Below, piece after piece: positions 7,808 through 17,644 of a DNA stretch of 38,896 bases; within the stretch, counting starts at the first letter, position 1; every line of letters starts with the position of its first letter. The notes beneath the pieces were generated by a model. The model saw only the letters and a program-made list of their open reading frames with translations, ran no database searches and had not been told where the DNA came from. Made by a program: the position numbers and the translations under genes. The stretch spans positions 1 to 38,896 of the forward strand of contig NZ_JAUNVV010000004.1 in the NCBI RefSeq assembly GCF_030540645.1, in the 5' to 3' direction. The stretch comes from Arthrobacter sp. GTDB lineage: Bacteria > Actinomycetota > Actinomycetes > Actinomycetales > Micrococcaceae.

Positions 7808-7971
7808 GGCACCACCCTACAGAGCCAACTCAAACTGTTTTGTGGACAAACTGTCACCGCAAAGAGAGGACATGTTTACGGCCTTCTGTGAGCAGCATCA
7901 CAAAATCTTAGTGACGCTTTGTTCCATCATGTCCATAAACCACCAGCTTGGGGGGCTACGATATTGGCATT
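7808..7971. promoter_or_regulatory. divergent hemE / hemA promoter region
   Basis: This 164-bp interval separates the two haem transcription units and is more AT-rich than its flanks. For hemA, TACGAT at 7957-7962 lies 9 nt before the chosen GTG. For hemE, TAGGGT on the minus strand (7817-7812) lies 4 nt before the ATG. Neither has a clear -35 box. An inverted repeat TTTGTggACAAA at 7837-7848 lies behind the hemE -10 and could bind a regulator. All assignments are by eye. Confidence 0.4.
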
Positions 7972-9288
7972 GTGGTTCTATTCTCCCTCGTTGCTTCGCA
8001 CAGCAGCATTGATCTGGAAACCGTTGCCCGCCTTAGCGCCGGGGCCGCGGCAGTCAGTGCTGAGATCATCCCACCGGAAAATGCAGTCACCGGGCTCATC
8101 ACTTTGGCCACCTGCAACCGCTACGAACTGTATGTGCACGCCCGCAGCAGCGAGGACCTTGAGTCTGCCCGCAGCTCGCTGATCGAATCGATCAGCAGAC
8201 ATTCCGGACTTGCCGAACGGTACGTTGCAGCAGCGCTGTCCACCTTGGAGTCCGACGCTGTACCGCGGCACCTCTTCGCGGTGAGCACGGGCCTGGAATC
8301 TGCCGTGGTGGGTGAGCGTGAGATTGCCGGGCAGGTGCGCCGCGCGCTGAGCATCGCCCAGGAACAAGGCTCCACGACACCCTCCCTGGTGAGGCTTTTT
8401 CAGGCCGCAGCCAAGACTGCCAAGGATGTGGGCTCCCAAACGGCACTCGGACGCCGTGGCATGTCAATTGTGTCCGTTGCGTTGGATTTAGCCGCGGAAC
8501 TGCAGGAACGTCCACTGGGCGGACTTGCCGGCAAGTCCGCCGTTCTTTTTGGCACCGGAGCGTACGCGGGAGCGGCCATGGCGCAGCTGGTGCAGCGCGG
8601 CTGTACCGACATTTCCATCTACTCCCCCTCCGGCCGCGCCGAAACCTTCACCGCTTCCCGCGGCGGCACGGCCCTGACCGAGGAATCATTACCGTTGGCC
8701 TTGTCCACCGCGTCGCTGCTGCTAGGCTGCAGCGGTTCAGACCATCAAGTGACGCGCACAGATCTGGCACAGGTGCGCCACAACGATTCACAGCAACTCA
8801 CCGTCATCGACCTTGCCTTGAACCATGATTTTGCCGCCGATATCGACAGCCTGCCCGGGGTGGACTTAATGACTTTGGAAACTGTCCGTCAAGCCGCCCC
8901 GGCCGAAGAAGAATCCACGCTGTCGCAGGCTTCGTCACTCGTGGCAGCGGCGACAAGGGACTTTGAACGGGCCCAGAATTCCCGCTCCCTGGACCATGCC
9001 ATCGTAGCGCTGCGCCGGCACACCATGGGTGTCCTTGACGATGAAATCGCGAAGGTGCGTAAACAGCACGGCTGCTCTGCTGCTACTGCTGAAGTGGAAT
9101 TCGCCATGCGCCGCATGGTCAAGCAACTTCTTCATGTACCGACGGTCAGGGCTAAGGAACTCGCGGCAGCCGGGGACCCGGACAGTTATTTAGCGGCTCT
9201 AGACGCCCTATACGGGCTGAAGATCGACCCGGCTGTCATCGGCTCCACCCTGACTCAAAGCCTTGATCCGAACGAAGCCGCAGGTTAA
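7972..9288 (+). CDS. hemA: glutamyl-tRNA reductase
   Basis: Reduces glutamyl-tRNA(Glu) to glutamate-1-semialdehyde, the first committed and usually rate-controlling step of the C5 pathway. The chosen GTG gives 438 residues beginning VVLFSLVASHSSIDLETVA, as expected for HemA. The nucleophile is Cys48 in LATCNRYELYV, followed by GLESAVVGEREIAGQV, an NADPH-binding LFGTGAYAGAAMAQL segment, and a C-terminal dimerisation domain. A TTG at 7948 would add eight residues with no family support. There is no ribosome-binding site at a useful distance, and a TACGAT box lies just upstream, so the message may be nearly leaderless. The stop overlaps the stop of the convergent dehydrogenase. Confidence 0.95.
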   Translation: MVLFSLVASHSSIDLETVARLSAGAAAVSAEIIPPENAVTGLITLATCNRYELYVHARSSEDLESARSSLIESISRHSGLAERYVAAALSTLESDAVPRHLFAVSTGLESAVVGEREIAGQVRRALSIAQEQGSTTPSLVRLFQAAAKTAKDVGSQTALGRRGMSIVSVALDLAAELQERPLGGLAGKSAVLFGTGAYAGAAMAQLVQRGCTDISIYSPSGRAETFTASRGGTALTEESLPLALSTASLLLGCSGSDHQVTRTDLAQVRHNDSQQLTVIDLALNHDFAADIDSLPGVDLMTLETVRQAAPAEEESTLSQASSLVAAATRDFERAQNSRSLDHAIVALRRHTMGVLDDEIAKVRKQHGCSAATAEVEFAMRRMVKQLLHVPTVRAKELAAAGDPDSYLAALDALYGLKIDPAVIGSTLTQSLDPNEAAG

Positions 9289-10271
9289 CCGAACGCGTTG
9301 ACGCCCGTCAGTTCCGCAGACAGTGTCCAGAGCCTCCGGGCACTGTCCGGATCCACCGCGTGCTCGTCCACACCGGCAAATCGGGCAAACTCCGACTCCG
9401 GGTCGGTGGGACTGGCAATGTCGCAGTCCTCGCAGTACACCCCTCCCCTTCCGTCCAGCAGCGGCGAAGTTGCCGCCCACACCGACGTTGCTGCCCCTTG
9501 TTCCGCAGATTTAAACCCATCTTTGAGCTTCCCGGTGTCATCCATCCACCCTGCCGCCACCATTTCCTCGTTTGTGAGGTGGCGCTGGAGCCCGGTCATG
9601 ATGCCTCCGGGGTTCACGGCAAAGGCCCGCACTCCATAGTCCGTGCCCTTCGCGTCCAGTTCCACGGCGAACAGGCTGTTGGCAGTTTTCGCCTGCCCGT
9701 AAGCCTGCCACTTGTCATAGCCACGCGTGAATTGGGGATCATCAAAATGGATGCCGGACACTTTGTGCCCCGTGGAGGACAAAGCCACCACGCGAGCCCC
9801 GCCGTCGGCTAGCACCGGCCACAACTCGTTGACCAGGGTGAAGTGCCCCAGATGGTTGGTGGCAAACTGCGCTTCCCAGCCCGGACCCACCCTCGTTTCC
9901 GGGCATGCCATGATGGCGGCATTGTTGATGAGAATATCCAGACGATTTCCCGTGGCCACGTACTCGCGGGCAAACTCCTTGACGCTGGCCTGCACACCCA
10001 AGTCCATGTCGAACACTTCGACCCCGCCGAGGTCTGCTGCCGCCAGCACCCCCCGGGCATGATCGGGGCGGCGTGCCGGAACATAAACCCGCACCCCGAC
10101 GCTGGCCAGCGCACGGACCGTTTCCAATCCCAGCCCGGAGTAGCCGCCCGTCACAATGGCAACACATCCGGAAAGATTCATTCCCTCCACAACGGCCGCC
10201 GCAGCGGTGTAGTGCCCAAATCCCGAAGCGAGCGGTTGCTGTGGTGTTGGTTGTTGTCCGGTGTGGTTCAA
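9285..10271 (-). CDS. short-chain dehydrogenase/reductase
   Basis: NAD(P)-dependent oxidoreductase of the classical SDR superfamily; the substrate cannot be told. The protein has the cofactor motif TGGYSGLGLET, the NNAAIMA motif, a serine in ALSSTGHK, and the catalytic YGQAK (YxxxK), followed by VNPGGIMTG. It resembles the retinol-dehydrogenase/WW-domain-oxidoreductase-like bacterial SDRs. The best start is the TTG at 10269-10271, preceded by AGAGG at a good distance, which gives 328 residues. Upstream codons in the frame look non-coding. It converges on hemA with a 4-bp overlap and no visible terminator between them. Confidence 0.85.
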   Translation of the reverse strand: MNHTGQQPTPQQPLASGFGHYTAAAAVVEGMNLSGCVAIVTGGYSGLGLETVRALASVGVRVYVPARRPDHARGVLAAADLGGVEVFDMDLGVQASVKEFAREYVATGNRLDILINNAAIMACPETRVGPGWEAQFATNHLGHFTLVNELWPVLADGGARVVALSSTGHKVSGIHFDDPQFTRGYDKWQAYGQAKTANSLFAVELDAKGTDYGVRAFAVNPGGIMTGLQRHLTNEEMVAAGWMDDTGKLKDGFKSAEQGAATSVWAATSPLLDGRGGVYCEDCDIASPTDPESEFARFAGVDEHAVDPDSARRLWTLSAELTGVNAFG

Positions 10272-10786
10272 GATGCGCCTCTTTAGTGAGTGCCGGCCCC
10301 AGAATTGTGAGGAAGGCCTACTAAGAAATTTACTCCGATGCAGCGATTTTGTCGTTGGGCGAACAGACAAGTTTCCATGGCTACTTCAGAGCCCAAAGAT
10401 GGCAACGTCCGCTGTTCGCGAGGTTCTTTCTCCACGGATATGCCCACGCCGCCTTCCCACTCTTCACGGGCAAGACCGGGAAGAAGACGTGGACACCGAC
10501 TGATTGGAATCAGTGGGCGCTTGAGGACTCGATACGGTCAATCCGCCAAAAATCTGCTTATTTGCAAAAATACAAATATCAATCGAACTTTAGTACGCAG
10601 AGCAATAAGCCCCCATCCAAGGTGACTGCACACTAAGTCGAACTAAGTGCAATATAACCGGTCAGGCCATATCGAGTACCAAGTGGCGTATCACGCAGCG
10701 AGTATCTTCCAAGCAGAACTGTGATCCACCTGCCTTGAGTACTCAGCCCAAGACTCATGCGATTATACCTGTCAAATTAAAGAAAC

Positions 10787-10802
10787 TGACAATTGATTGT
10801 CA
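10787..10802. promoter_or_regulatory. palindrome, possible operator
   Basis: TGACAATtgATTGTCA is a perfect 7-bp inverted repeat with a 2-bp centre, in AT-rich DNA 510 bp before the repeat-protein gene. The symmetry fits a dimeric helix-turn-helix regulator. The binding protein is unknown, and the distance from any gene start makes its role uncertain. Confidence 0.3.
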
Positions 10803-11122
10803 AATTTTGTCACAAACAAACATAACAGTTTGCGCGAAAAAATTCATGGCACAGAATTCCAACAAACCTTCTTCAGTCATAAACATTGTCCGAGCCGGCA
10901 GAAAATTTCAGCAGAAACCTCGGCAACACAAGCATACAGGCCCTTTGGGGCCAGGCTGCCCCCGAATCTGGCGTCCCCTCAGAACTTTGACAGGGCATAC
11001 AAATACATGCACTGAGCCCAAATCTGCCCTCCCTGTCCAATGTGTGATTTCAGCGGTTAATGTTTTGCTTTGTGGTCTAAAAAACCGGAATTTGACTACG
11101 TATGTGAGATTTAAAATAGGGC

Positions 11123-11151
11123 TTGTCAAATATAGTCATTTCATTTACCCT
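11123..11151 (+). promoter_or_regulatory. candidate promoter of the repeat-protein operon
   Basis: TTGTCA at 11123-11128 and TACCCT at 11146-11151 are separated by 17 bp, the preferred spacing for a housekeeping sigma factor. Transcription would begin near 11158 and give a leader of about 150 nt before the ATG at 11312. Other AT-rich boxes in the same stretch could serve equally well. Confidence 0.3.
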
Positions 11152-11311
11152 AAATCATTATTATAAACGTGATTATAAATGTATTATTACCATTTGAGAT
11201 ATGTACATAACCGAATATTTGCCCTAACATGAATGACGTAATGACAATTCCAATATTTAATTACCCCCGGCGGTGATCATTACTCCCGCCGCCTTTGTAA
11301 GGAGAATCATC

Positions 11312-12490
11312 ATGGCTGGCGAACTTTCAACACAACTGCAGGACTTGGATGGAAACGGGGCAGGTTCATCTGCTGAAACAACCTCCTCAACATCCACAAC
11401 GGGCTCGAACGGGCACGGGTCAGTCCACTCCGCATTCAGCGTCGATCTCTCCCAAGACCCGCTGATGCTCGTCCCCGCAGGCTTGTTCGGCAACATCGTT
11501 GGCAGCTTGGCCGGCACCATCGGAAAGGAGGTCGGTGGATGGTTCGGGCAGAAGGCCCTGGGTCACGCCGTTGGTTCTGCCGCGGGCCCGTTGATCAAAC
11601 ACTTTTCCCCATTCCAGATCCTCCCACCGCAGGCTGCCGTGAACGACGCGGGACCCGAGGAAGCCCTCATGGTTGTGCCTGCCGGGTTCTTGACTGGCCT
11701 GCTCGGCGGTGTCGGAGGAAAAATCATTGGCACGGCAGTAGGCGGCCTGTTTGGGAACAAGAAGCTCGGAGGCCAGATCGGTTCCGGTACCGGCGGGGCG
11801 CTGGGCTCAATCTTTGGCCCGTTCGAAGTTGTCGCACCCCAGCTGGCGCCACAGTCCAGCGGTCCTCAAAACGACCAGTTGGATCACATCCAGGACGCCA
11901 TGGTGTTGGTGCCGGCTGGATGGCTGGGCCACCTGTTCGGTGGCATCAGTGGCGGGGTTGGCCAGATCATCGGCGGTGACACCGGCAAGGCCGTCGCTCA
12001 TCTTGGGGGTGCCGTAGGGAAACTGCTGCCATGGCAGGCAGTCCCGCCGGAGCTGGCCCCGGCCTCAACCGGTCCTGACGGCGGGGCCTCCAATGAGGAA
12101 CTCATCGTGGTACCGGCTGGTTGGCTTGGCAACCTTGCTTCGTCATTTGCCGGAACCATCGGGTCCTATGCTGGCCGCAAGCTTCTGAACAACGCCGGAG
12201 TCGGCCGGCAGCTTGGTGAGGCCGCTTCCCCACTCCTTCGGATGATCCCGTACTCAGTGGTCCCCGAAGAGCTGCAGCCGCAATCCACGGGCCCCGATGC
12301 GGACAACCCAGAAGACAAGCTCGTGTACGTCCCGGCATCGATGCTCGGAGGACTGCTTGGCAGCTTCGGCGGACTCGTGAGCAAGTCAGTAACGAATGGC
12401 GGGCGCAACAACGCCACCGTCGCCGGGGCTGCCGATGAACTCAAAAAGTTCAGCCCTTTCCAAGTCCTGCCCATCGGCGCCAGCGCCTAA
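11312..12490 (+). CDS. five-repeat glycine-zipper-like protein, possible polyprotein
   Basis: I do not recognise this 392-residue protein as a named family. Residues 1-50 are hydrophilic and rich in Ser, Thr and Gly, with no signal peptide. Five tandem repeats follow at 51-118, 119-196, 197-263, 264-336 and 337-392. Each opens with a VPAG-like motif (LVPAGLFG, VVPAGFLTG, LVPAGWLG, VVPAGWLG, YVPASMLG), continues as 35-45 residues rich in Gly and hydrophobics with GxxxG spacing, and closes with a PF-x-V-x-P box such as SPFQILPPQ or GPFEVVAPQLAP. Repeats 1-4 end in an acidic linker such as SSGPQNDQLDHIQDA or STGPDADNPEDK. The ATG at 11312 has AAGGAG 7 nt upstream and is preferred to 11273. It is the first of four genes with a downstream subtilase, so proteolytic release of five membrane-active peptides is one inference; a membrane-associated scaffold is another. 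Confidence 0.82.
   Translation: MAGELSTQLQDLDGNGAGSSAETTSSTSTTGSNGHGSVHSAFSVDLSQDPLMLVPAGLFGNIVGSLAGTIGKEVGGWFGQKALGHAVGSAAGPLIKHFSPFQILPPQAAVNDAGPEEALMVVPAGFLTGLLGGVGGKIIGTAVGGLFGNKKLGGQIGSGTGGALGSIFGPFEVVAPQLAPQSSGPQNDQLDHIQDAMVLVPAGWLGHLFGGISGGVGQIIGGDTGKAVAHLGGAVGKLLPWQAVPPELAPASTGPDGGASNEELIVVPAGWLGNLASSFAGTIGSYAGRKLLNNAGVGRQLGEAASPLLRMIPYSVVPEELQPQSTGPDADNPEDKLVYVPASMLGGLLGSFGGLVSKSVTNGGRNNATVAGAADELKKFSPFQVLPIGASA
11462..12487 (+). repeat. five tandem protein-coding repeats in the glycine-zipper-like gene
   Basis: Units at 11462-11665, 11666-11899, 11900-12100, 12101-12319 and 12320-12487 encode 68, 78, 67, 73 and 56 residues. They match at the protein level (VPAG start, GxxxG core, PF-x-V-x-P end) but differ widely at the DNA level, including at synonymous sites, so the duplications are old and kept by selection rather than recent slippage. 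The last unit lacks the acidic linker. Confidence 0.85.
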
Positions 12491-12508
12491 TTCGAAGGAG
12501 ACTGCAAG

Positions 12509-12832
12509 ATGGCATTCACCTGGAACCGACCGAACTCATCTGACCAGACCGTGGCCCTGGCTACAGCTGCTGTGAGCGCTGCAGCCGGGGGCGAGCCCGG
12601 AGTAACGGAGGCAGACCGAGAGCAGCTGGGCTCTTTGTTGGTTGGCTTCTACACGTACCTCAAGACCAACGCTCCCTCCTTTCCCGAGCTGGCTCCTGCA
12701 GTTCAGGAAATGCACTCCGCCGTGGCTGCCTACCATTCCGGGCAGTCCCAAGACCCGTTTGGGCCGATCAAAAAAGTGCACGCCAGCATCGCTGCACAAC
12801 GGCGTAACAATCCGATCATTCCCAAACCCTAG
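12509..12832 (+). CDS. hypothetical protein, 107 residues
   Basis: The family is not recognised. The protein is soluble-looking and mostly helical, with an alanine-rich segment (about 15-27), an acidic stretch EADREQLGSLLVGFYTYLK that could be one amphipathic helix, and a basic proline-containing tail. It has no signal peptide, membrane segment or cysteine. ATG at 12509 has AAGGAG 9 nt upstream, and the gene begins 18 bp after the repeat protein, so it is almost certainly cotranscribed. It could be a chaperone, immunity or scaffold partner of the repeat protein, but nothing in the sequence decides this. Confidence 0.78.
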   Translation: MAFTWNRPNSSDQTVALATAAVSAAAGGEPGVTEADREQLGSLLVGFYTYLKTNAPSFPELAPAVQEMHSAVAAYHSGQSQDPFGPIKKVHASIAAQRRNNPIIPKP

Positions 12833-12852
12833 GTAATCGGAGGCCACCACTC

Positions 12853-13095
12853 GTGTCAGTCCATGTCAAGCGATACATCGTCGGGGGTGATCCCCGTCTG
12901 ATCAAGCCATTTCTCGGTCTCTTCACTGCGGACTCCACAATGATCGTGCACTCGGTAGTCCGTGATGGCCGGGGTGACCCGGAACGACTGGTCGTCTCCA
13001 TGGACCCGGCCCGGGCCGCCGCCTTCGAGGCGGCGCTCGGGCCAGCGATCATCATCGAACCTGACGAACTACTCAACCCCCTAGGCGGCACCTGA
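12853..13095 (+). CDS. small protein resembling an I9-type subtilase propeptide/inhibitor
   Basis: 80 residues from GTG 12853, with GGAGG 9 nt upstream. The second half, ERLVVSMDPARAAAFEAAL then AIIIEPDELL, runs parallel to residues 72-100 of the adjacent peptidase (DKIVVATIPEQTVANLIRHP then VLVEEDSFIL). Both follow the pattern of inhibitor-I9 domains, which end in a strand with a V-E-x-D signature. Length and predicted beta-alpha-beta order fit a free-standing inhibitor or intramolecular-chaperone fold. The stop overlaps the peptidase ATG by one base (TGATG), so the two products are probably made in fixed proportion. The similarity was aligned by eye and is inference; no signal peptide is present. 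Confidence 0.7.
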   Translation: MSVHVKRYIVGGDPRLIKPFLGLFTADSTMIVHSVVRDGRGDPERLVVSMDPARAAAFEAALGPAIIIEPDELLNPLGGT

Positions 13096-14882
13096 TGTCA
13101 GCAAAACAGAACGACAACCCACTGCTTCCCGCCCGTGCAAGAACATTCCTGCTGGCCAAGGACAACACTGTTTTGTCCCCGGCTAGCGTCGGCTCTCTCG
13201 ATTTCGACTTCGTGATCGAACAACTGGAGGCTGACCCGGACGTGGAAATCCAACAACGGCTCACTCCGCGCACCTTCAGAGCCCAAGTCCTGGGCACTTC
13301 TATCACAGACAAAATCGTAGTTGCCACGATCCCTGAGCAGACAGTTGCGAATCTGATTAGGCACCCGCAAGTGCTCGTGGAGGAGGACAGCTTCATCCTG
13401 CCCCAACCTGCCGCAAGTTCGGTCCAGGAAATCGACCCCGGGCTGCTTAGCCCGTTCGGCACCACCACAACGTGGACCATTGTCCTCACTGGTTCCGGGC
13501 AGCAACCGGTCGCAGGGGCCACCGTTTACCTCTATGGCAGCGGCACTCCGGCCCAAGGACGCACCGACTCGGCCGGGTCTGTCACACTCAGTCTGCTCAA
13601 CGAGTCCGACTCCACGATCCGGGCAATCTACATCAACCCACAAGCCGACTACTGGTCGGCATGGATCGACCGGCCACAACTGACCAGTGGTGCCACCACC
13701 ACGATCCCGTTGGCTCCGCTATCCGATTCCTTCCCCGGATTCCCCGACTCCGAACTCATTGGCTGGGGACAACGAGCCATGCGGTTGGACCAGGTTCCGG
13801 CCACTTTCACCGGTAGAGGCATCAAGGTCGCAGTCGTTGACTCCGGAGCAGCCGCACTCACCCACCCCGACTTGACCGACATGCGTGAGGGCATCGATCT
13901 GACAAGCACGCCGAGCAACTATGAACAATGGAAAGACGACACCATCGCCCACGGGTCGCACTGCAGCGGCATCATCGCTGGAGCTCAGAACGGCGGCGGA
14001 GTGAAGGGATTCGCCCCAGAGGCGGAAATGCACCAGGCACGGATATTCCCGGGCGGACGCATCAGCAGCCTCATCGACGCCGTTGACTACTGCATTGATC
14101 AGGGGATCGATGTCGTCAACATGAGTCTGGGCACTGGGGGAAGCTCGCAGATCATGTTGCAGAAGCTAGCCCAGGCCAAGGAACTAGGTGTTGCCTGCAT
14201 CGTAGCTGCAGGCAACACCGGTGGGGACGTGCAGTTTCCCGGAACCTCGCCTGACGTGCTCACCGTCGCGGCGATTGGCAAAAACGACGAGTTCCCTGAA
14301 TCCAGCTACCATGCCCAACAACGCTGGAAGAACGGTCAGGACGACCTCGGGTTCTTTTCCGCCCAGTTCTCCTGCCACGGCGAACGGATCGACGTGTGTG
14401 GGCCAGGGGTCGCGGTCGTGTCCTCGGTGCCACCCAGTGGGTTCGCCGCATGGGACGGCACATCCATGGCCACCCCTCACATCGCCGGACTCGCAGCCCT
14501 CGTTTTGGGTCACCACCCCGACTTCCAATCCGGTCCCTTGCAACACAAAGGCGCAGCTCGCGTCGATCGCCTGTTCGACCTGCTGAAGTCCTCATCCACC
14601 CCTCTGCAGTTTGGTGATCCACAACGATCCGGGGCAGGGCTCCCCGACTCCATGCGTGCGCTTGGACTGGAGCAAAACGGCCAGACAGGAACCTCAGCAG
14701 TGTCCCAAGACACCGCAGTGCAAACCGCACTGGCCCAACTCAACAAGGAACTAATTGCAGCCGGCCTTCTCGCAGAAGTCATGAACATGGAGCCACCCGC
14801 CGCCAACACCGGACAGACCGTCCAACGCGAGCTCGAGGAGGTGCGCGCCCGCATGCTCAACGCGAGCCTGTCCGTCGCCTAG
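13095..14882 (+). CDS. subtilisin-like serine peptidase, family S8, without signal peptide
   Basis: Serine endopeptidase of 595 residues. The catalytic triad is intact: Asp249 in VAVVDSGAA, His286 in AHGSHCSGIIAG and Ser457 in DGTSMATPHIAG, with oxyanion Asn374 in VAAGNTGG. Residues 35-105 look like an I9-type prodomain, and residues 125-205 (PVAGATVYLYG, GRTDSAGSVTLSL) look like a transthyretin-like carboxypeptidase-regulatory domain. The C-terminal 90 residues are helical and charged. There is no Sec or Tat signal and no membrane segment, so it probably acts in the cytosol or leaves by an unusual route; most S8 enzymes are secreted. Translationally coupled to the I9-like gene, it is the last gene of the unit and the likely processing enzyme for the repeat protein. 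The peptidase identity is firm; the substrate is inference. Confidence 0.93.
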   Translation: MSAKQNDNPLLPARARTFLLAKDNTVLSPASVGSLDFDFVIEQLEADPDVEIQQRLTPRTFRAQVLGTSITDKIVVATIPEQTVANLIRHPQVLVEEDSFILPQPAASSVQEIDPGLLSPFGTTTTWTIVLTGSGQQPVAGATVYLYGSGTPAQGRTDSAGSVTLSLLNESDSTIRAIYINPQADYWSAWIDRPQLTSGATTTIPLAPLSDSFPGFPDSELIGWGQRAMRLDQVPATFTGRGIKVAVVDSGAAALTHPDLTDMREGIDLTSTPSNYEQWKDDTIAHGSHCSGIIAGAQNGGGVKGFAPEAEMHQARIFPGGRISSLIDAVDYCIDQGIDVVNMSLGTGGSSQIMLQKLAQAKELGVACIVAAGNTGGDVQFPGTSPDVLTVAAIGKNDEFPESSYHAQQRWKNGQDDLGFFSAQFSCHGERIDVCGPGVAVVSSVPPSGFAAWDGTSMATPHIAGLAALVLGHHPDFQSGPLQHKGAARVDRLFDLLKSSSTPLQFGDPQRSGAGLPDSMRALGLEQNGQTGTSAVSQDTAVQTALAQLNKELIAAGLLAEVMNMEPPAANTGQTVQRELEEVRARMLNASLSVA

Positions 14883-14898
14883 CCCGCGGCGTTCACCC

Positions 14899-14937
14899 GA
14901 TCAGGGCTGGCGTGGAACCTCTCCCCCAGCCCTGATC
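14899..14937 (+). terminator. hairpin after the S8 peptidase operon
   Basis: Perfect 12-bp inverted repeat GATCAGGGCTGG / CCAGCCCTGATC (14899-14910 and 14926-14937) with a 15-nt loop, 16 bp after the peptidase stop. Only a weak T-rich tail follows, as is common for terminators in high-GC Actinobacteria. Confidence 0.7.
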
Positions 14938-15006
14938 TTCCCTCAATGCTTCTGCTTCATAATAAAAACGGAGGCCAGAAACAAAAATTTACCCCCGTGC
15001 AGCGGG

Positions 15007-16188
15007 TTAGTCGCTGGCCGCCCACGCGTCCATGCCGCCGTCAAGATGCACGACGTCGGCGAAACCGGCTGTGCGCAGGCTCGCCAGTGCCTGGGCCGAG
15101 CGCGTGCCGGCCTTGCAGTGCAGCACCAGTGGAACGCCGCGCGGCACTTGACCCAGCGCCGTTCCGTCCTTGATGCCTGCCAGCGGAATCAGCACCGAAC
15201 CGGGTATCCGCACGATCTCAAATTCCACCGGTTCCCGCACGTCTATCAAAACAAAGTCGTCGCTGCCCTGCTCTCGCCCGGCCAAGCGTTCGGCGAGCCT
15301 TCCGACAGAGATGAGGTCGGCGTCGTCCTCGTCGTGCGCAACAATGCCGCAGAAGACCTCGTAGTCCACAAGCTCGGTGATGGGCGACGCCTCCGGGTCC
15401 TTGGCGATCCGAATTTCACGCCACCGCGACGTCAACGCATCGAACACGAGCAGGCGCCCAAGAAGACTCTGCCCAATGCCCGTGATGAGCTTGACGGCTT
15501 CTGTGACCATCATGGCCCCGATGGAGGCACACAGCATGCCGAACACTCCGCCCTCTGCACACGAGGGCACGGTGCCGGGGGCCGGCGGCTCGGGGTACAA
15601 ATCGCGGTAATTGGGGCCGAACCTGTCCCAAAACACGCTGACCTGGCCATCAAAGCGCAGGATGGATCCCCACACGTAGGGCTTGCCCAGCAGTGCAGCC
15701 GCATCATTGACGAGGTAGCGGGTGGCAAAGTTGTCCGCCCCGTCCAGGATGATGTCATAGTCGGCAAAGAGGCCCAGTGCGTTGGAGGAATCCAGGCGCA
15801 CGTGGTGCAACACCACGTTCACGCCCGGGTTGATGTCAAGGATGGAGTCCTTGGCCGATTCAAGCTTGGTGCGGCCAATATCCGCCACCCCGTGGATCAC
15901 CTGGCGCTGCAGGTTGCTCAACTCCACGACGTCGTCGTCGATGATGCCCAGCGTTCCCACGCCTGCCGCAGCCAAATACAACAATGCCGGGGAACCGAGC
16001 CCGCCGGCGCCGATCACCAGGACGCGGGCGTTGCGCAGCCGGCGCTGCCCTTCCAACCCAATTTCCGGAATCAGGGCATGGCGTGAATACCGTTCTAGTT
16101 CCTCAGCGGCCAGCGGTGGGCCCGGCTCCACCAGCGCCGGCAGACGGGTGGCAGTCGTGGTGTTCAAGGACGGAATGAGGGAAACCAT
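15007..16188 (-). CDS. moeZ: adenylyltransferase/sulfurtransferase MoeZ
   Basis: Activates the C-terminal glycine of ubiquitin-like sulfur carriers (MoaD, CysO, possibly ThiS) by adenylation and then thiolates it. Residues 30-280 are the ThiF/MoeB fold, with RYSRHALIPEIG, the ATP-binding VIGAGGLGSP (58-67), DDDVVELSNLQRQ and SCAEGGVFG. From about 295 a rhodanese domain follows, with FVLIDVREPVEF and the active-site loop around Cys358 (LHCKAGTRSA). Total length is 393 residues, usual for MoeZ. The zinc CxxC pairs of E. coli MoeB are absent, as is normal in the MoeZ branch. It is divergent from the TetR gene, with 107 bp between starts. It may supply sulfur to the ThiS encoded nearby. Confidence 0.93.
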   Translation of the reverse strand: MVSLIPSLNTTTATRLPALVEPGPPLAAEELERYSRHALIPEIGLEGQRRLRNARVLVIGAGGLGSPALLYLAAAGVGTLGIIDDDVVELSNLQRQVIHGVADIGRTKLESAKDSILDINPGVNVVLHHVRLDSSNALGLFADYDIILDGADNFATRYLVNDAAALLGKPYVWGSILRFDGQVSVFWDRFGPNYRDLYPEPPAPGTVPSCAEGGVFGMLCASIGAMMVTEAVKLITGIGQSLLGRLLVFDALTSRWREIRIAKDPEASPITELVDYEVFCGIVAHDEDDADLISVGRLAERLAGREQGSDDFVLIDVREPVEFEIVRIPGSVLIPLAGIKDGTALGQVPRGVPLVLHCKAGTRSAQALASLRTAGFADVVHLDGGMDAWAASD

Positions 16189-16295
16189 ACTTCTTAATCT
16201 AGTCCTGCTTGCAGCCTATGGCGCATTGCCCGCGAGTAGACTGACACAAAACAGCCCAGCAGCACCTGGGGGCAATGGAAAGAAAGGCTGCTGTA

Positions 16296-16934
16296 ATGAG
16301 TTTGGAACCGTCTGCCAAGGAACGTGCCGTCACCAAAAGCGCGCCGACCCGGCTGCCCCGCGATGAACGCCGCGCACAACTGCTGTCCGCCGCTTTGGAA
16401 GTTTTCGTCAACCATGGTTACCACGGTGCGGCCATGGATGAAATTGCCGAGACCGCCAAGGTCAGCAAGCCCGTGCTGTACCAGCACTTCCCCGGTAAAC
16501 GGGAACTGTACTTGGCGCTGCTGGACAGCCATCTTGAGTCTTTGACGTCCATGCTCGTGGATGCGTTGAACTCAACCACGGACAACAAGTTGCGCGTCCA
16601 GGCCACCATGAAGGCGTATTACACGTTCATGGCCAACGACGATCAGGCCCACAGGCTGGTTTTTGAATCCGACCTCGTCAACGACCCCGATGTGGCCGCC
16701 CGGCTGGAAAAATTCAATGCGAACTATGCCGATGCGATTGGCCAGGTCATTGCGGAGGACACCAAGCTCTCCCCCGTTGAGGCGACCCTGCTGGGACGCG
16801 CCTTGGCGGGCATGGCCCAGGTCAGCGCCCGCTATTGGCTCGAGGCCAGGGACAATATTGACATCGATGTGGCCAGCGATCTGGTTTATCGTTTAGCTTG
16901 GCGCGGAATTAGCCGCTTCCCCAAAGAATCCTGA
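16296..16934 (+). CDS. TetR-family transcriptional regulator
   Basis: 212 residues. The N-terminal helix-turn-helix is clear: RRAQLLSAALEVFVNHGYHG, then AAMDEIAETAKVSKPVLYQHF and PGKRELYLALLDSHLESL. The C-terminal ligand-binding half is typical in length, but its ligand is unknown. I prefer the ATG at 16296, which has AAAGG 8 nt upstream; an in-frame ATG at 16275 would add seven residues. It belongs to the actinobacterial moeZ / TetR / DUF3107 neighbourhood, also seen in mycobacteria (Rv3206c-Rv3208A region, from memory), so it is a conserved core regulator rather than an accessory one. Confidence 0.92.
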   Translation: MSLEPSAKERAVTKSAPTRLPRDERRAQLLSAALEVFVNHGYHGAAMDEIAETAKVSKPVLYQHFPGKRELYLALLDSHLESLTSMLVDALNSTTDNKLRVQATMKAYYTFMANDDQAHRLVFESDLVNDPDVAARLEKFNANYADAIGQVIAEDTKLSPVEATLLGRALAGMAQVSARYWLEARDNIDIDVASDLVYRLAWRGISRFPKES

Positions 16935-16996
16935 GCCGCTGCCCCTACAGTGGTTTGTACATACCTTTATCGCAAGTTTGCACCAAGGAGACAACA

Positions 16997-17221
16997 GTGG
17001 AAATTAAGATCGGCGTCCAAAACGTAAGCCGTGAAATCGTTCTTGAATCCGAGCAGAGCGCTGATGACGTGGCGGCCTTGGTGACTGAAGCATTGGACAA
17101 GGGAACTGCGCTTCGTCTTAAAGACGAAAAGGGCCGACTGTTGATTGTTCCCGGAAATGCCCTGGGGTACGTTGAATTGGGTGGCGAGAAGGCCCGCAGC
17201 GTCGGGTTCGGCGCCCTCTAA
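16997..17221 (+). CDS. DUF3107 family protein
   Basis: 74-residue small protein of the actinobacterial DUF3107 family (mycobacterial TB9.4-like), of unknown biochemical role. It has the family opening VEIKIGVQNVSREIVLES and the internal LIVPGNALGYVELG, and ends ARSVGFGAL. The GTG at 16997 has AAGGAG 6 nt upstream, so it is a much better start than an upstream in-frame ATG at 16955. It follows the TetR gene by 62 bp, and the pair is conserved together in Actinobacteria. Confidence 0.9.
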   Translation: MEIKIGVQNVSREIVLESEQSADDVAALVTEALDKGTALRLKDEKGRLLIVPGNALGYVELGGEKARSVGFGAL

Positions 17222-17263
17222 GAGCCCCAACCCTTTAGCTGGATAAAAGAGAGACGAATTTTC

Positions 17264-17569
17264 ATGGTCGCGTTGGTTATCATTGCCCTTTGTTCCGGTG
17301 CCCTGGGTGCCATCGCCTGGGCAGTGGACAAGTACCGCAGTACATTCGGCGCAGTGCTTCCTGCCGGTGCGGCCGTGGTGGCATCGTTGCTTGTCTGGAT
17401 CATCACCATGGCCGTGGGCTTGGGCAACGACAGCTCCACCGCTTGGATCCCATGGATTTTCTCCATCGTGGTCGGTGGCGCCGCAGCGTGGGCCACAGCA
17501 GGCTTTGTGGGCCGTGCGCGCCACACACAGCTGGTGCAGCAGGCCAACGCGATCTTGCACATGCAGTAG
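17264..17569 (+). CDS. small membrane protein
   Basis: 101 residues with three hydrophobic segments (about 2-21, 28-49, 60-83), predicted to span the membrane, and a short charged/polar C-terminus. No signal-peptidase site and no recognised family. It lies 42 bp after the DUF3107 gene on the same strand and is probably cotranscribed. The ribosome-binding site is weak (GAGAG). A 19-bp-stem hairpin follows the stop. Confidence 0.8.
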   Translation: MVALVIIALCSGALGAIAWAVDKYRSTFGAVLPAGAAVVASLLVWIITMAVGLGNDSSTAWIPWIFSIVVGGAAAWATAGFVGRARHTQLVQQANAILHMQ

Positions 17570-17578
17570 TCGAACCGG

Positions 17579-17644
17579 ATAAACGCACCTTCGCCGCATA
17601 TACGTGCTTCGGTACATGCCGATAAGCGGCGAAGGTGCGTTTAT
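17579..17644. terminator. long bidirectional hairpin between convergent genes
   Basis: A perfect 19-bp inverted repeat (17579-17597 and 17626-17644) encloses a 28-nt loop that itself holds a GTGC-TTCG-GTAC mini-stem with a UUCG tetraloop. It sits between the stops of the plus-strand membrane protein and the minus-strand pterin dehydratase, so it can end transcription from both sides. The arm ends in TTTAT on the plus strand. Confidence 0.75.

Follow-up and report, generated by a model that had tools for sequence, protein, structure and literature searches.

A conserved operon pairs a glycine-zipper repeat protein with a subtilase in Arthrobacter: a possible bacterial conflict system

Among the enzymes of the S8 (subtilase) type, cyanobactin PatA/PatG and LanP process precursor peptides, and Kex2 is an S8-type protease whose cleavage signal is dibasic. 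A protease that is encoded together with its own substrate protein is a principle known in kind. In fungi, the gasdermin HET-Q1 is paired with the S8 subtilase HET-Q2, a precedent for a subtilase beside a membrane-active substrate (PMC10989679). Toxicity of glycine-zipper proteins is described for CdzC and CdzD, and many Cdz-like systems appear to be horizontally acquired (PMC5380434). Tandem precursors cut by a protease are known from the fungal Kex2-processed repeat proteins, whose repeat sequences are highly diverse (PMC7329392), and malaria parasites have a stand-alone subtilisin propeptide-like inhibitor, SUB1-ProM (PMC6993865). Another defence-type operon combines a bacteriocin-like glycine-zipper protein with an AAA+ ATPase, not with an S8 peptidase (PMC11090510). 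Here we analyse a four-gene operon in a stretch of 38,896 nucleotides from Arthrobacter sp. (contig NZ_JAUNVV010000004.1, our contig C25, hereafter the window), in which a tandem repeat protein (gene 1) and an S8 peptidase (gene 4) are encoded together with two small proteins (genes 2 and 3).

In the gasdermin-protease pairs, as in this operon, a protease gene (S8 in HET-Q2) is clustered with a substrate that is membrane-active there and possibly so here, and the pairs have a role in conflict (PMC10989679, PMC9612521). However, gene 1 has no match to a known family and is built of small glycine-zipper units, and the operon adds an adaptor-like gene and a copy of a peptidase domain in trans. 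The Cdz system also has hydrophobic polypeptides with the GxxxGxxxG pattern, but these are separate proteins of 86 and 84 amino acids whose N-termini are signal-like, and they are served by a type I exporter and by the immunity protein CdzI (PMC5380434). In the window the units follow one another within a single protein, and the operon has a protease and no exporter or immunity gene. The model precursor of Kex2 carries a signal peptide and is processed in the Golgi (PMC7329392); in the window no signal peptide is evident and the protease lies in the same operon. By eye, the dibasic Kex2 signal is absent from the four linkers of gene 1, and KK or RK occurs inside three of the units. SUB1-ProM resembles gene 3 in being a separate propeptide-like gene beside subtilase genes (PMC6993865), but gene 3 resembles a domain without a Pfam I9 match and its inhibitory role is a proposal. 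The initial annotation of the window had pointed to PatA/PatG and LanP. This comparison is weaker than those with protease-activated pore-formers and Kex2 repeat proteins, and the window's operon has no transporter and, according to Pfam, no enzyme modifying ribosomally synthesised peptides among its four genes. In searches of the open-access PMC literature no paper appeared to describe such an operon, and its composition is, as far as searched, undescribed.

Our favoured reading, to which we give a probability of roughly 0.45, is that gene 4 binds the protein of gene 1 and cuts it into membrane-active units, in defence or killing. Cutting and release are likeliest for the window because of the precedents HET-Q2/HET-Q1, CdzC/D, the fungal repeat precursors and SUB1-ProM. 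The operon occupies positions 11312-14882 of the window, with all four genes on the forward strand: gene 1 (11312-12490), gene 2 (12509-12832), gene 3 (12853-13095) and gene 4 (13095-14882). Gaps of 18 and 20 bp are followed by a TGATG junction between genes 3 and 4, in agreement with the initial annotation, and ribosome-binding sites of the AGGAG/GGAGG type are seen by eye upstream of genes 1-3. The operon is thereby confirmed as an observation and its earlier interpretation is partly supported. The earlier picture was incomplete in that gene 2 belongs to the system as a dedicated component, the type of the first gene varies by lineage, and some of the related peptidases are dead.

Gene 1, identified by its open reading frame and the unit profile, encodes 392 amino acids with five glycine-zipper units. 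The unit profile marks exactly five, at residues 49-116, 117-186, 195-256, 262-329 and 335-391 with 67-100 bits, and the units belong by construction to this profile. With the repeat profiles, they are placed at 11456-11659, 11660-11878, 11894-12088, 12095-12310 and 12314-12487, the acidic linker after unit 2 ending at 11893. Five units with acidic linkers had already been recognised in the initial annotation, and the linkers indeed contain D/E. A unit is about 55-75 residues long and rich in Gly; it starts with [VL]VPA[GS] or YVPAS and has P[FWY] and Pro-rich sequence at its end. GxxxGxxxG is found at 13 overlapping positions, and 45 of the 392 residues are charged. At the DNA level the units have diverged, leaving only two families of 21-nt repeats. 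No signal peptide is evident by eye. Genes 1-3 have no match in Pfam, NCBIfam and PADLOC (up to E 5) or in PHROGs (up to E 1); in particular, gene 1 matches neither the Pfam glycine-zipper family nor any gasdermin family in Pfam or PADLOC. Nothing in the PDB matches the unit profile better than E 0.73.

The pairing of the repeat gene with the S8 gene recurs in a distant bacterial family, that of Cupriavidus. In a scan of named genomes, four Cupriavidus loci carry a glycine-zipper repeat gene directly 5' of an S8 gene, and one further, distant S8 was found (E 2e-4). The unit profile A3 matches seven of 180 genomes of this family, two of which supplied units to it and five of which are independent, and in all seven an S8 gene lies directly downstream; repeat homologues away from an S8 gene were not found in this sample. 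With gene 4 as the query the same 180 genomes gave nine matches, i.e. these seven, G718 and G752. In G718 a repeat gene with 11 full units adjoins the S8 gene, and in G752, where the S8 is distant (34% identity), no frame matches the unit profile. In every one of the ten genomes of the family whose S8 is close, the repeat gene lies directly 5' of it, and the repeat proteins contain 2 to 11 full units. Co-occurrence, a variable repeat number and a constant protease, as envisaged in the initial annotation, thus hold in this family. An S8 profile at E 1e-60 found only the known Cupriavidus in 130 genomes across that phylum, and the distribution is therefore patchy.

The units of the two families are homologous. 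A profile built from the window's units only matches three repeat proteins of Cupriavidus' family at E 2.6e-23, 2.4e-33 and 2.8e-44. For the repeat protein of G718 it gives E 1.7e-4, which is weak alone, with the worst decoy, a reversed Gln-rich protein, at 0.0026; the combined profile A5 gives E 2.2e-50 for the same protein and 0.0011 for the worst decoy. The window-only profile is insensitive, missing the glycine-zipper protein of G404, and A3 misses that of G718 at E 1e-4. A sub-threshold match to Gly-zipper_OmpA (E 0.0099) was seen for a Cupriavidus repeat protein. The sequence of the units is constrained: in four of four Cupriavidus genes, two units of one gene differ by 6-12 synonymous and 0 nonsynonymous codons out of 53. 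Unit pairs of the same type in G718 also differ mainly synonymously; the exceptions are those that include the last unit, with 3-4 nonsynonymous differences. Almost the same peptide is kept in every copy, which is expected if the units act singly, as products or as assembly modules.

In nine of the ten loci of Cupriavidus' family that were read, two membrane-protein-like genes lie 3' of the S8 gene (e.g. L077:7249-8947). At L048 only the second of them is seen, a bestrophin-like gene (L048:8234-9034, PF14023, E 2.5e-44). These genes are candidates for immunity or export.

In the window's class, relatives of gene 4 (E 1e-30 or better) are present in 14 of 394 genomes, the source genome included, and all 13 other loci were fetched and read. 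A relative of gene 2 lies 5' of the S8 gene in 12 of the 13 and a relative of gene 3 in three. The first gene is readable in 11 loci, the other two ending at a contig edge, and by eye it encodes a low-complexity or repeat protein in every one of the 11. The four-gene order of the window is also present in L042 and L038. The first gene of L042 has four glycine-zipper units, found by A5 at E 3.2e-5 (best of 200 shuffles 0.56) and not matched by the window-only profile, and that of L038 has two hydrophobic units. The first gene can change between close relatives: L042 and L044 belong to one genus and their S8 proteins are 76% identical, with only 34% identity between the first genes. By eye, the product of the first gene has glycine-zipper units in L042 and Gln/Ala-rich helices in L044. 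Such divergence is not found in all pairs, as L036 and L040 are 82% identical in S8 and 80% in the first gene. The position of the window's S8 in the S8 tree is not settled, and we therefore do not claim an exchange of modules between lineages. Weak matches of the repeat profile in six genomes of the class (E 0.003-0.01) were taken as chance.

The system is also found in a temperate phage. In the viral contig IMGVR_UViG_2823022788_000001 a repeat gene and an S8 gene (38% identity, E 7e-89), together with a possible gene 3 whose match is not significant, are flanked on one side by a gene that by eye looks integrase-like and on the other by an AimR gene (NF038310; 380 bits against a cut-off of 70). 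The pair thus sits at a position of lysogeny cargo, and this supports a role in conflict. The S8 of the prophage has matches in 25 phage records, and in no case do they extend over 80% of its length; neither gene 1 nor a Cupriavidus repeat protein used as a query has relatives in the phage or plasmid collections. The AimR (arbitrium) prophage cargo is seen at L120:3408-6101 and L118:3-3986, with an assembly gap inside the repeat gene.

Gene 4 encodes a 595-residue S8 peptidase (Pfam Peptidase_S8, E 8.2e-39; 134 bits, cut-off 21.8) with D249, H286, N374 and S457 in place. The intact triad of the initial annotation was found again, as was the lack of a signal peptide, for which none is evident by eye, and the protein is probably cytosolic. 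Its N-terminal domain (about residues 14-106, 13134-13412; alignment A8) is prodomain-like by position. It is followed by an Ig-like region (about residues 123-205, 13461-13709) with sub-threshold hits to Big_1 and CarboxypepD_reg. AlphaFold2 with four Cupriavidus rows gave a mean predicted local distance difference test score (pLDDT) of 38.9; inside this otherwise failed model, blocks at residues 121-210 average 54-84 and are beta-rich. In PADLOC, gene 4 matches the 'subtilase' model PDLC03014 (E 1.2e-23) and, weakly, IetS (E 7e-4). No active-site residue is lost in the phage S8 or in any of the 12 loci with glycine-zipper units. We rejected gene 4 as a mycosin of type VII secretion (TIGR03921, 123.9 bits, cut-off 278.75) and as a cyanobactin PatA/PatG protease (TIGR03895, 25.8 bits, cut-off 421.05).

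The two small genes appear to be linked to the peptidase. Gene 2 encodes 107 residues, helical by pattern, and is matched at E 2.5e-10 by a profile built without the window (best of 314 decoys 0.23). In a search of 18 genomes or records, with up to 150 candidates scored per genome, 13 gave exactly one match, beside the S8 gene, and the other five none. A motif in the tail of S8, [LI]..[LEM]...[ML]..AGL, is present in 13/13 S8 proteins with gene 2 and in 0/14 without it, having been defined after these related sequences were seen. In gene 4 it reads LAQLNKELIAAGL (residues 546-558, 14730-14768), and among 127 frames of the window it is found only in gene 4. This pairing suggests that gene 2 is an adaptor that would dock on a helix in the tail of gene 4.

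The product of gene 3, with 80 residues, resembles the N-terminal domain of the peptidase. A profile built from the N-terminal domains of eight S8 proteins, one of them the window's, matches it at E 1.4e-6 (best of 312 decoys 0.71), and a profile of three gene 3 relatives does so at E 1.8e-4. Judged from these alignments, gene 3 looks like a detached and diverged copy of the domain, and we propose it as an inhibitor in trans. Pfam I9 is matched neither by genes 3 and 4 (to E 5) nor by 12 members of the domain family (to E 1), so that Pfam does not support the earlier label 'I9-like'. The idea of the initial annotation that gene 3 restrains the enzyme gains support from the resemblance to the enzyme's own domain. 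The closing VExD pattern is presumably I9-like, and no propeptide is present among six PDB matches.

According to the favoured reading, gene 4 would recognise the tandem repeat protein and, where its active site is intact, cut it between the units, freeing several copies of a glycine-zipper peptide of 50-70 residues. The freed peptides may associate in membranes and injure the producing cell, or a neighbour after lysis. Until then gene 4 might be restrained by its own N-terminal domain and by the separately made copy, gene 3. Gene 2, docked on the short helix in the C-terminal tail, could present the repeat protein or sense a trigger. The most likely use would be in conflict, i.e. abortive defence or competition, and the system may have spread horizontally, at least once as prophage cargo. 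The sequences show that the operon is conserved, that its units are homologous to those of a distant bacterial family, vary in number and are constrained, and that gene 3 resembles the enzyme's domain; binding, cleavage, membrane action and the inhibitor, adaptor and defence roles we infer.

Several observations weigh against this reading. The hydropathy of the units of gene 1 peaks at merely 1.25-1.65 (19-residue scale), marginal for membrane insertion, and the predicted model of a unit is poor (pLDDT 53). No transporter or immunity gene was found among the four genes of the operon, judged from matches to the family libraries. A motif shared between the repeat linkers and the S8 linker between the N-terminal and Ig-like domains, sought in 12 loci as a possible cleavage site, has low p values only among related loci in the family of Cupriavidus (0.006, 0.03, 0.08 and 0.17); p is 0.27 for the window, a negative outcome, and 0.20-0.90 for seven others. 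A second viral instance was found in none of the other viral scans. For gene 2, besides the late definition of the tail motif on related rows, 11 of the 14 S8 proteins without the gene have tails of 16 residues or fewer, and the other three, with tails of 28-100 residues, lack the motif too. The gene 3-relative profile places the N-termini of merely 6 of 26 S8 relatives below 1e-4 and misses the window's own S8. Further points concern the first gene and the active site. By eye, the first gene is Gln-rich in nine of the 11 readable loci of the class (19-40% Gln in the seven measured), and six such genes have no detectable homology to the units and no hydropathy peak above 1.2, so that membrane action cannot be general. 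When the S8 of the window and those of 26 relatives are aligned (27 rows), the active site is broken in five, each beside a Gln-rich first gene: His and Asn are lost in L043, Asn and Ser in L046, L007 and L008, and all three of these residues in L047. The partnership can thus outlive catalysis, and to judge from these rows binding alone can suffice for it. Binding is therefore the likelier basic relation, and cutting would be a trait of the type found in the window.

These same relatives point to a serious rival, in which the repeat protein would form an intracellular polymer or condensate by self-assembly. The S8-fold protein would then act chiefly as its binding partner or trimmer, and cleavage, where it is retained, would tune the assembly instead of releasing toxins. 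Proteins with dead active sites still keep their partner gene, the first genes are of low complexity and some are nearly uncharged (no charged residue in 165 for L043, seven in 251 for L048), and glycine zippers also drive aggregation, as described for CdzC (PMC5380434). However, the active site is kept in every glycine-zipper locus, gene 1 of the window is charged, and a separate inhibitor-like gene 3 is hard to explain for a pure scaffold; we hold this reading to be possible, if on balance unlikely. The units could instead be unmodified antibacterial peptides of a multi-unit bacteriocin, released by lysis or by an unlinked exporter, with gene 4 as the maturation protease in the way of Kex2 in fungi. 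Their near-identity and variable number recall the Kex2-processed repeat proteins (PMC7329392), and the membrane-protein-like genes of Cupriavidus' family could serve immunity or export. In the window there is no leader, transporter or immunity gene, and the next gene is moeB-like and on the other strand; we consider such a bacteriocin quite unlikely. Very unlikely, too, is a pseudo-substrate role, where the repeats occupy gene 4 until a trigger frees the protease, itself the effector, to attack other proteins. This would suit an apparently intact cytosolic protease with inhibitor-like domains in cis and in trans, and an enzyme linker somewhat like the repeat linkers in Cupriavidus' family, but it leaves the constraint on each unit copy, the glycine-zipper character and the relatives with a dead enzyme unexplained. 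Finally, an ordinary cytosolic subtilase might by coincidence adjoin an unrelated glycine-rich gene. Among 295 genomes of the window's family (22 of them other members of the genus, by their handles), searched by scoring a limited number of first-look candidates, gene 1 (E 1e-3) and gene 4 (E 1e-30) were found in their own genome and in none of the other 294. The linkage nonetheless recurs both in the window's class and in the family of Cupriavidus, and the units are homologous across the two. This contradicts a coincidence, which we regard as extremely unlikely.

If the units released by gene 4 are membrane-active, as in the favoured reading, the operon would be a compact protease-triggered effector with amplification, one cut protein giving many peptides, and with gene 3 as a safety catch. 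More broadly and more tentatively, the loci may form a new family of devices for conflict between bacteria or with their phages, built around a tandem repeat protein that switches type between lineages, membrane-active with glycine zippers and polymer-forming when Gln-rich. It would be controlled by three partners: a protein with the subtilase fold, whether catalytically active or dead, a detached copy of the inhibitory domain of that protein, and an adaptor docked on its tail. Protease-triggered cell death would then have a counterpart in prokaryotes, in which a single substrate, once cut, gives many effector peptides. The system is known from the window's class, Cupriavidus' family and a temperate phage, and the relatives with a dead enzyme are a natural test of binding against cutting. 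The pairing of gene 2 with the tail motif, the variable number of units and the change of the first gene between lineages make it testable by simple co-expression.

The source genome is a 3.55-Mb draft. The operon lies in a lineage-specific insertion of 4.65 kb (10361-15008), between an SDR-like and a moeB/thiF-like gene (names by eye). In the genus relative G052, window positions 7901-10360 (92%) and 15009-17625 (95%) align with 715 bp in between, and in G255 about 60 bp separate the aligned flanks; G113 gave no information on the insertion, its contig ending close by. The region 5' of the operon is AT-rich, as described before, two steps of 500 bp having a GC content of 0.47 and 0.43, compared with 0.58-0.64 in the other steps. 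The AT-rich stretch 10400-11300 (GC 0.43-0.47) is part of the sequence missing from G052, and a sigma-70-type site sought there was not found. As for the closing hairpin of the initial annotation (14899-14937, forward strand), the stable fold stands (-31.2 kcal/mol, z -4.7), but a T-run is absent and the terminator scan made no call at these positions.

At the Streptomyces plasmid loci L007, L008 and L127 the first gene is also Gln-rich. The first gene of L043 (L043:3703-4221), 165 residues from its likely start, is free of cysteine as well and has three near-identical repeats by eye. In the relatives with a broken active site the residues are lost in different combinations, possibly more than once, leaving pseudoproteases kept beside Gln-rich proteins. 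Plasmids of Rhizobium and Paracoccus (L009:4578-6327; L010:4479-6287) carry a more distant S8 gene with an 81-residue gene directly 3' and no unit-profile match nearby, and these S8 proteins possibly belong to a wider family. The moeB/thiF-like gene that flanks the insertion is found in all 23 genomes searched in the genus.

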